This document shows, one piece after another, positions 780 through 64,000 of a stretch of DNA of 64,000 nucleotides. Below the pieces are notes generated by a model. It saw nothing but the letters and a program-made list of their open reading frames with translations. It had not been told where the DNA came from and searched no databases. How positions within the stretch are numbered: the stretch's first letter is position 1; each line of letters starts with the position of its first letter. Source of the DNA: Imbricaverruca yamaguchii (Eukaryota; Arthropoda; Thecostraca; Neoverrucidae); contig JAOTOL010001172.1 in assembly GCA_034440575.1 (NCBI GenBank), positions 62,001-126,000 on the forward strand, in the 5' to 3' direction. Both the position numbers and the translations under genes were made by a program.

Positions 780-2637
780 CGGTCGTCTCCGGATCGGCTC
801 TGGAATGTACCTGTATGGCAGTCATCCCAAAATGGTTGTGGGGTGTGCCTATGTGGCATTGCTCCCCAGATGGCTATGAGGTGTGCCTGTATGGCACTGC
901 TCCTCAGATGACTGTGAGGTGTGCCTGTATGGCACTGCTCCTCAGATGGCGTGTGTGTGTGCGTGATTGTGGTTTTAGGGCGCATCGACCAATGTTGGTC
1001 ATGTAGCGCCCACTCCTCAGATGGCTGTGAGGTGTGCTCGCGTATGACACTGCTCCCTAGATGACGGCGAAGTGTGATCGTGTATGACACTGCTCCCTAG
1101 ATGACTAGGTGTGCCCGTGTATGACCCTGCTCCCTATATGACTGTGAGGTGCGACCGTGTATGACAGAACGAGTAGTCTATGGGTAAGTTGCTCGTTTCA
1201 CAATCGAAAGGTTGTGGATACGAGTCACATCCGTCGCTACTCTTCGCCCGCGACCAATCGGCGTGAGAGATTGGCGACGCTACATGACTCAGCGGTCGAT
1301 GTGTCGGAAAACCAAGAACCAACCAACCAACGACCTTGTATGACACTGCTCCCTGGATGACTGTGAGGTGTGGCCGTGTATGACGCTGCTCCTTAGATGA
1401 CTGTGCGGTGTGTGCGTCTATGACACAGTTCCCTAGATGACTGTGAGGTGTGACCGTGTGTGACGCTGCTCCCTAGATGACTGTGAGGTGTGCCGTGTAT
1501 GACACTGTTCCCTAGATGACTGTGAGGTGTGACCGTGTGTGACGCTGCTCCCTAGATGACTGTGAGGTGTGCCCATGACGCTGCTCCCCAGATGACTGGA
1601 CTGTGAGGTGTGACCGTGTATGACGCTGCTCCCTAGATGACTGTGAGGTGTGCCCATGACGCTGCTCCCCAGATGACTGGACTGTGAGGTGTGACCGTGT
1701 ATGACGCTGCTCCCTAGATGACTGTGAGGTGTGCCCATGACGCTGCTCCCCAGATGACTGGACTGTGAGGTGTGACCGTGTGTGACACTGCTCCCTAGAT
1801 GACTGTGAGGTGTGACCGTGTATGACACTGCTCCCTAGATGACTGTGAGGTGTGACCGTGTATGACACTGCTCCCTAGATGACTGTGAGGTGTGCCCATG
1901 ACGCTGCTCCCCAGATGACTGGACTGTGAGGTGTGACCGTGTATGACGCTGCTCCCTAGATGACTGTGAGGTGTGCCCATGACGCTGCTCCCCAGATGAC
2001 TGGACTGTGAGGTGTGACCGTGTATGACGCTGCTCCCTAGATGACTGTGAGGTGTGCCCATGACGCTGCTCCCCAGATGACTGGACTGTGAGGTGTGACC
2101 GTGTATGATGCTGCTCCCTAGATGACTGTGAGGTGTGCCCATGACGCTGCTCCCCAGATGACTGGACTGTGAGGTGTGACCGTGTGTGACACTGCTCCCT
2201 AGATGACTGTGAGGTGTGACCGTGTATGACACTGCTCCCTAGATGACTGTGAGGTGTGACCGTGTATGACACTGCTCCCTAGATGACTGTGAGGTGTGCC
2301 CATGACGCTGCTCCCCAGATGACTGGACTGTGAGGTGTGACCGTGTATGACGCTGCTCCCTAGATGACTGTGAGGTGTGCCCATGACGCTACTCCCCAGA
2401 TGACTGGACTGTGAGGTGTGACCGTGTATGACGCTGCTCCCTAGATGACTGTGAGGTGTGCCCATGACGCTGCTCCCCAGATGACTGGACTGTGAGGTGT
2501 GACCGTGTATGACACTGCTCCCTAGATGACTGTGAGGTGTGCCCATGACGCTGCTCCCCAGATGACCACAGAGTGACCGTGTATGATGCTGCTCCCTATA
2601 TGGCTGAGGTGTGACCGTGTACGACGCTGCCCCCCAG
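780..2637 (+). repeat. Minisatellite built from the SCAPER exon A acceptor junction
   Basis: Tandem units of about 36, 40 and 45 bp fill the intron up to the acceptor of the first SCAPER exon. A typical unit reads TGACGCTGCTCCCCAG then ATGACTGTGAGGTGTG. The true junction reads CGACGCTGCCCCCCAG then ATCGGCTCTGAGGTGT. Each unit is therefore a diverged copy of the 3' splice site plus about 20-25 exonic bases. The copy near 790 keeps GATCGGCTCTG intact and is closest to the exon. A SINE at 1167-1329 interrupts the array. Repetitive open frames on the minus strand are artefacts of periodicity. Confidence 0.85.
1167..1329 (+). mobile_element. tRNA-derived SINE, family S1, copy 1
   Basis: The sequence has an A-box-like region (AGTAGTCTATGGGTAAG), a hairpin around ACAATCGAAAGGTTGTGG, and a B-box-like ACGAGTCAC. 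The body contains CTCTTCGCCCGCGACCAATC and the tail AACCAACCAACCAA. Near-identical elements lie at 27918-28083 (+) and 43627-43795 (-). Flanks CGACCGTGTATGACA (1152-1166) and CGACCTTGTATGACA (1330-1344) look like a 15-bp target duplication with one mismatch, but they are also array units, so this is ambiguous. The element is nested in the minisatellite, so the array is older. Confidence 0.75.
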
Positions 2638-2864
2638 ATCGGCTCTGAGGTGTACCTGTTGTCGCACCTGCGCGGGCGGCAGCACGGCGAGTCTGTGCGG
2701 GCGGCGGCCGGGTCCGACCTGGTCGGCGAGGAGCTGCTGCTCTACAACATGCGGCACATCACAGACGCGGCGCCGCAGCACATTCTCAACTGGACGTACG
2801 ACAAGGACCGCCGCAAGACACTCAAGAAACGCTGCAGGAAAATCAAGGCGCGCATGGCTGCCAG
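2638..2864 (+). CDS. SCAPER: SCAPER exon A
   Basis: Acceptor CCCCCCAG|ATC, donor CCAG|GTGAGC. It starts in phase 0 and leaves two bases (AG). It encodes [18 protein letters not shown], the end of the SCAPER zinc-finger region, then a linker and the basic stretch [14 protein letters not shown]. The coding sequence is much more GC-rich than the surrounding intron. Confidence 0.93.
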
Positions 2865-63260: not shown

Positions 63261-63873
63261 AGCTGGTATTGATATACACCAATAGTATGCACCAGATAAT
63301 TATCACCACATAAAAAATGTGCGGAGCTGAGAACAATGCGTCTGACTAAGGAAACAGATAAATATTAGGGTAATATCCTCAGAATATTCAAAAGACAAGC
63401 CACGTACATTTAATTTCCCCGTGTCAATGTATCTGTTATGAATGTAAGCAACGTACGTATGCACGAAAATATTGCAACATGCTGTATTTTGTCTGATGCA
63501 TCATGACGCAAGTGGAGTTCTTCATGTGCAATCCGCTCGAATTCGCTGTGTATCGTCAGCTCTAGCGCTTCTGGTGTAAGTACCCATTAGCCTCTTAAAA
63601 CAATATTTTCTGAGCAACAACTACAGTAAATAGCAATTCCATTATTAATCGGTCCCCTTATGCTGCAAACTATGAATCGCTCATGGTGTAATAACGCAGC
63701 CAGCACATCACAATCACATCATCACCCACATAATCAGTGAGCTGCTATTACCCTGACATTATAATAATTAGTCAGCTGCTATTATGCTAGCATTATGTCA
63801 CTAATCAGTCATCTGATGTTCTACTGCTAATAAAGCACTAATCTACTCATGGAATGCGGCCAGTAAATGCTAC
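63261..63873 (+). other. Intron after exon 7
   Basis: No gene is recognised. A short repeated stretch (ATCATCACCCACATAATCAG, then TCAGCTGCTATTA) occurs near 63720-63790. Confidence 0.4.
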
Positions 63874-64000
63874 CTTGTCTTCAGAATACTCAACCCCATC
63901 GACTTCAGCCAGTGCCAACTTGTTTTCAGGGTACCCGATCCCATTGACTGCAGCAAGGACTACCTTGTTTTCAGAGTACCCAACCCCAGCGACTGCAGCC
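63874..64000 (+). repeat. 45-bp array of an acceptor plus peritrophin exon start, at window edge
   Basis: CTTGTCTTCAG or CTTGTTTTCAG recurs at 63874, 63919 and 63964, exactly 45 bp apart. Each is followed by G/A-GTACCC-A-CCC-A--GACTGCAGCC, encoding (R)VPNPSDCS, the same start as exon 7 (RVPNPTDCS). The third copy (from 63975) may be the true next exon, running off the window; the two before it are decoy copies. The array is cut by the window end. Confidence 0.88.
63975..64000 (+). CDS. Possible chitin-binding protein exon 8 (start only)
   Basis: After ACCTTGTTTTCAG the bases give, with AG from exon 7, RVPNPSDCS, matching the start of exon 7. Only nine codons are in the window. The copies at 63885 and 63930 are alternatives for the true exon start. 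Confidence 0.6.

Follow-up and report, generated by a model that had tools for sequence, protein, structure and literature searches.

The window, meaning the whole stretch of 64,000 nucleotides analysed here, is part of contig C939 in a barnacle assembly of 767 Mb and 1430 contigs, and its forward strand carries exons of SCAPER and of a chitin-binding (CBM14-type) gene. That the host is a barnacle is read from a COX1 gene at another place in the assembly (97% identity to Leucolepas longa, a barnacle, and 90% to Balanomorpha), from matches to the arthropod cuticle family PF00379 and from SCAPER. SCAPER was identified by a match to human SCAPER (3e-38); it is 76% identical to an Amphibalanus protein with the whole query covered, and a protein named "Pol...", taken as Pollicipes, matches 53% of the query at 80% identity. 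Its splice edges were placed by spliced matches to barnacle SCAPER proteins (P0121/P0122) together with tblastn, and the unplaced edges (e1 acceptor, e3 donor, e6 acceptor, anything from e3 to e6, and e7 donor) were excluded. Chitin-binding edges were set by reading frame and splice signal. A second multi-exon gene, sarcosine dehydrogenase (SARDH), lies on the minus strand of the same contig outside the window; its edges come from spliced matches with porcelain-crab and trout homologues, with the s3 donor, the s4 acceptor and anything from s3 to s4 or before s1 excluded as unplaced. The exons named in what follows are these.

2638..2864, plus strand: SCAPER exon A (e12), from tblastn and the spliced match to barnacle SCAPER
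13196..13342, plus strand: SCAPER exon F (e17), from the spliced match to barnacle SCAPER
23120..23360, plus strand: SCAPER exon G (e18), from the spliced match to barnacle SCAPER
24576..24725, plus strand: SCAPER exon H (e19), from the spliced match to barnacle SCAPER
39583..39622, plus strand: first coding exon of the chitin-binding gene, from frame reading, in a phase that agrees with exon 2
53874-54026, plus strand: chitin-binding exon 3, from frame reading

The ends of chitin-binding exons c5 and c7 (56579-56839 and 62661-62923, lengths 261 and 263) share 254 identical bases, evidently a recent local duplication. Positions 34400-38930 of the minus strand hold open reading frames that by reading resemble gag/pol of a Gypsy-type LTR retroelement, spread over several frames. 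An alpha-tubulin-like single-exon gene (C939:7312-8784), named by reading, lies upstream of SCAPER, and a SID1-like long single-exon frame, likewise named by reading, occupies C939:151332-153710 on the minus strand. At C996:270910-272247, on another contig of more than 270 kb, COX1 has as neighbours COX2, a portion of ND2 and a stretch resembling small rRNA, these again being named by reading; either mitochondrial DNA copied into the nuclear genome or a joined contig may account for it.

According to the original prediction, at least eight exon boundaries in the window are flanked by minisatellites built from diverged copies of that very boundary. Arrays were delimited with TRF and junction copies were collected by local alignment, up to 12 per junction being listed. 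At all eight named junctions the tandem units do prove to be diverged versions of the junction itself, two of them weak by automatic score, and the predicted unit lengths agree with TRF, running from 26 to 88 bp across the window sites.

1359-2653, plus strand: array at the SCAPER exon A acceptor (first base 2638), extending 16 bases into the exon; at least 12 copies, AG kept in 12/12 listed
13082-13199, plus strand: array at the SCAPER exon F acceptor (13196); 39-bp unit, 2 copies, AG kept in 2/2
13322-13711, plus strand: array at the SCAPER exon F donor (13342); 30-bp unit, 6 copies, GT kept in 6/6
23375-23535, plus strand: array at the SCAPER exon G donor (23360); 26-bp unit, 6.3 copies by TRF, of which 2 pass the score cut-off, with GT kept in 2/2
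24171-24608, plus strand: array at the SCAPER exon H acceptor (24576), overlapping the exon, with at least 30 exonic bases copied; 88-bp unit, 4 copies, AG kept in 4/4
39614-39915, plus strand: array at the chitin-binding exon 1 donor (39622); 53-bp unit, 5 copies, GT kept in 5/5
53656-53818, plus strand: array at the chitin-binding exon 3 acceptor (53874); 75-bp unit, 2 copies, AG kept in 0/2
63870 to beyond 64000, plus strand: array at the acceptor of the chitin-binding exon at the window edge (63975); 45-bp unit, 2 copies with AG

The weak cases are the exon F acceptor, where the match scores 34 and stops fewer than five bases past the junction, which places it outside the scored set of edges given below, and the chitin-binding exon 3 acceptor, where the match scores 21, under the cut-off of 27, and is evident by eye. 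A further array, with a 42-bp unit and a sequence similar to that of the exon F acceptor array, occupies 12497-13064. At the edge exon, the third match is a paralogous exon itself (c7). Junction-spanning copies are present at 13 of the 16 contig junctions chosen for listing (from 73), and AG or GT is kept in 56/64 of the aligned copies listed for the contig, one of the 64 being exon c7; among the copies listed for SARDH, the dinucleotide is kept in 5/7 at s5 and 8/11 at s1. As sequence, therefore, the predicted planting of decoy splice sites stands, most listed copies being candidate sites. Arrays also abut some junctions that they do not copy, as local alignment finds no junction copy in those next to SARDH s2, SARDH s11 and chitin-binding exon 2.

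48617..49024, plus strand: arrays with 174-bp and 21-bp units before the chitin-binding exon 2 (c2) acceptor, ending 8 bp before it

Two comparisons bear on the history of the arrays within the genome. Neighbouring chitin-binding exons c8 (63975) and c7 (62483) start alike, the first with an array and the second without, which implies that arrays appear or disappear once an exon has duplicated. Cuticle paralogues L026 and L048, on different contigs, have a common 32-bp array near the same acceptor, implying that arrays are also inherited.

To count such cases we used two measures. In the first, the 50-bp junction was compared with its own intron-side flank of 1.5 kb at a score cut-off of 27. 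A junction-spanning copy is found at 10/72 contig edges, all of them one-sided, while 4.15% of random intron points have a one-sided copy; with a 400-bp flank the figures are 9/73 edges against a background of 3.6% (P 0.0012). When every local copy within 1.5 kb on a given side counts, 13.9% of edges and 15.1% of random intron points qualify; because so many intron points already have a local copy, this plain comparison shows no enrichment, which is visible only with the one-sided and array-end measures. In the second measure, a TRF array had to end within -60..+20 bp of a splice edge. Array ends are found at 13/73 contig edges, where 2.0-2.75 are expected, and none of 5000 circular shifts reaches 13. 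The SARDH acceptor s1 was added after its array had been seen; without it the contig count is 12/72. On the same contig outside the window, 5/41 edges qualify (P 0.005-0.018), or 4/40 without s1 (P 0.02-0.06). GC content was rejected as the cause, as GC-matched non-exonic positions on the contig give 2.3 expected against 13 seen. In 80-bp bins from the edge, the first facing array ends on the contig number 13, 2, 4, 1, 0 and 1. Depending on the measure, the excess at edges is about 2.5-6.5 fold. The recurrence at junctions proposed in the original prediction thus lies well above chance when set against shuffled positions; what that account left out is the 15.1% of random intron points that have a local copy too.

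The same excess is seen in other genes on many contigs. The cuticle family (PF00379) has at least 150 matches, and 40 of the 150 listed were hand-picked for an acceptor test; with L046, L050, L058, L060 and L062 dropped, 35 acceptors were placed and arrays end at 7 of them, or at 7/32 when three of the near-identical paralogues (L043-L045 and L026/L048) are removed. For myosin, the best 20 of 72 listed matches were used, skipping the first, which is one long frame, and with one acceptor unplaced; arrays end at 4/39 edges, which alone gives P 0.07. Cuticle and myosin edges were placed by reading frame and splice signal at a point when the array lists were already available; the L067 donor was placed a few bases off, with no array there, and L026, L048, L064 and L077, with arrays 22-30 bp away, were scored as misses. 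Pooled, the edges outside the window give 16/115 where about 4.5 are expected (P 7e-6 to 2e-5, with intron or in-stretch background), or 15/114 without s1 (P 3e-5 to 6e-5), so that the pattern extends to other genes of the assembly. First facing array ends in 80-bp bins number 7, 3, 1, 1, 2 and 0 for the cuticle genes and 4, 5, 1, 0 and 1 for myosin, where the peak is less sharp. By the first measure with a 400-bp flank, a spanning copy is found at 7/74 edges of the new loci, as compared with 3.8% (P 0.023). Both 5' and 3' exon boundaries are affected, with abutting arrays at 5/55 donors and 19/92 acceptors (P 0.10). At L042, L028 and the L081 donor, the best copy is a junction-spanning extra copy with no TRF array, and these look like early or young stages; the extra copy at L023 reaches only 3 exonic bases.

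Minisatellites are abundant throughout. They make up 8.6% of the contig, with 98 arrays in 256 kb, and cover 14-24% of the first 400 intron bp from an edge and about 9-12% deeper; array density is 0.47 per kb in the three gene spans versus 0.26 per kb between them. Their units show no excess of AGGT on the contig, which occurs in 6/13 near edges (5.8 expected) and 19/78 elsewhere (15.1 expected). AGGTRAG, a motif that donor copies would be expected to contain, is present in 2/13 edge-near units (0.4 expected). The idea that stop codons, as coding boundaries, behave like splice edges looked tenable at 3 with arrays among the first 39 stops, but was rejected when 20 of a further 40 cuticle loci were added (L042 and L092 having frames without a stop) and the count became 3/63, the background rate. 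The contrast between 3/63 stops and 16/115 splice edges is suggestive only and not significant (Fisher P 0.076).

Whereas 10/72 edges match their own flank, only 9/2280 junction pairs show a match to a foreign flank, pairs less than 5 kb apart and chitin-binding pairs being excluded from this comparison. As the original prediction had it, one spreading satellite does not account for the arrays, whose units are local and gene-specific; a genome search with the chitin-binding exon 1 array, which skips very common words, finds only the home locus. The direction of copying can be read from the exonic bases in the units. At SCAPER exon H they encode a peptide conserved in the Amphibalanus protein, at SARDH s5 they encode GPESFTPDHNPIMG, a peptide almost unchanged in crab and vertebrate proteins, and at SCAPER exon A, checked by eye, the copied bases likewise encode a homologue-conserved peptide. 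In these three cases the conserved peptides imply that copying ran from the exon to the array. Direct evidence covers local origin, derivation from the exon where this was checked, the involvement of donors and acceptors alike, and an edge excess on many contigs. Introners represent one element repeated across many introns, with splice signals. The barnacle arrays resemble them as repeated intron DNA with splice signals and differ in that units are specific to each junction and the exon 1 array occurs only at its own locus; an introner-type element was rejected, since one element at many introns is not what we find and foreign matches are so few.

A closer precedent is found in amphioxus. Minisatellite-like tandem duplications of intron-exon boundaries, termed mirages, are described in the globin genes BflGb6 and BflGb9 (PMC3087553), in a paper that also points to previous examples in Adh3 and further loci and, in the part available, reports undisturbed splicing and an array length that is unstable, differing between alleles or cells; PGBD5 and troponin C were added later (PMC3902484). 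The barnacle arrays share with these the boundary-copying minisatellites, the location at 5' or 3' edges, the site-specific unit length and the many copies with AG or GT, as far as the accessible text describes them. Tandem minisatellites, boundary-spanning units with exonic bases, both edges and varied unit lengths are all found in the barnacle. They differ in host, in that several gene sets are counted against a background, and in being known here from genome sequence alone. The suggestion that no such pattern had been described is therefore superseded by the amphioxus reports, the available parts of which gave no genome-wide count (PMC3087553, PMC3902484). The literature searched, with most subscription journals outside its coverage, yielded no arthropod mirage, and the terms "tandem repeat", "satellite", "tandem" and "minisatellite" are absent from the main texts, as far as available, of the Pollicipes and Balanus improvisus genome papers. 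The barnacle arrays are a known kind of feature in another phylum; what appears new is that phylum and the measured excess at splice edges.

In the literature found, as far as its text was available, the only mirages so far documented are in a few lancelet genes, and the barnacle counts outside the window (16/115 abutting, 7/74 spanning) make their origin measurable. As several barnacle genomes are sequenced, the birth, survival and splicing effect of arrays can be compared at orthologous junctions, which bears on intron lengthening, on the source of spare splice sites and on errors in gene models for genomes of this type.

We favor, at a probability of about one half, the interpretation that the barnacle arrays are mirages of the lancelet type, produced by ordinary local duplication that can happen anywhere, is tolerated at exon edges and survives longer there. 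Slippage or short tandem duplication would copy some 25-90 bp anywhere in a repeat-rich genome. A duplication straddling an exon edge would be tolerated, as the copy nearest the exon would preserve the edge with its splice site complete while surplus copies would be spliced out with the intron. The array might then expand or contract by slippage or unequal exchange as its outer copies drift, and the excess over other intron points would reflect longer survival beside exons, where deletions into the exon are purged, with no dedicated machinery. We infer the copying mechanism, the tolerance by splicing and survival as the cause of the excess. The predominance of own-flank over foreign matches, the conserved peptides in the copied exonic bases, the presence of arrays at donors and acceptors, the density of arrays, the lack of AGGT enrichment, the extra junction copies with no TRF array, the contrast between exons c8 and c7 and the peak of first facing array ends at edges are consistent with this interpretation. 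Against it, tolerance alone predicts the background rate, yet edges lie well above it, and stop codons, which are also coding boundaries, stay at background.

A local process that duplicates junction DNA, as originally proposed, is upheld in that the units are local, gene-specific and, where checked, exon-sourced, and that the repeats are in excess at junctions. Splice-junction DNA as a special substrate for it is not, given that similar arrays are abundant throughout, that AGGT is not in excess and that several abutting arrays yielded no junction copy on alignment. It is nonetheless possible, if doubtful, that junctions are birth hot spots of tandem duplications and that barnacles and lancelets independently share such a process, in which case about a tenth of edges would bear its trace, with introns remodeled and spare splice sites planted. 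A junction-focused mutational process in the germ line, involving for example transcription-linked breaks, RNA-DNA hybrids or nucleosome edges, could lead to more tandem duplications, and would fit the peak of array ends at edges and their excess outside the window, the failure of GC to account for that excess, the lack of one at stop codons and the junction-spanning extra copies without an array. On balance we consider it unlikely: AGGT is not enriched, alignment found no copy of the junction in some of the abutting arrays, and present-day arrays do not separate origin from survival.

Selection for the arrays, with repeated splice sites or exon-end sequence improving or regulating splicing, is improbable. 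The kept AG and GT dinucleotides and the somewhat more frequent arrays at acceptors than at donors would agree with it, but copies are homogenised within arrays and the kept dinucleotides are therefore not independent, chitin-binding exon 3 keeps AG in neither copy, and the similar exon c7 manages without an array. Chance in a repeat-rich genome with selective reading, or an assembly artefact, is very improbable. The looser measure, the weak count for myosin alone and that for the contig outside the window without s1 speak for chance, whereas the pooled excess (P about 1e-5), which stays when s1 is left out, and the circular shifts speak against it; the copies differ among themselves, unlike plain assembly duplicates.

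The model of Rogers, intron gain by tandem duplication of AGGT, is cited in PMC3087553 and, in the text available, proposed there for the lancelet mirages, with the same idea published for a potato gene (PMC4974935). The barnacle arrays resemble it in local duplication at splice-type sequence and depart from it in units without AGGT excess and in introns that can far exceed their arrays. That they are remnants of newly made introns is the least credible explanation, as arrays fill one end of an intron, such as 390 bp of the 9.8-kb intron after SCAPER exon F, an intron that does not consist of the duplicated unit.

Three arrays straddle stop codons, at 860-1164 in L027, 739-1026 in L041 and 767-937 in L060, in gene orientation, their units including the stop codon together with the final part of the frame, and the L060 repeat is also coding. 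As arrays in untranslated regions lengthen the mRNA and those in introns do not, this may contribute to the lower rate at stop codons. Among L023-L062, several cuticle genes have in-frame coding tandem repeats beside the chitin-binding domain.
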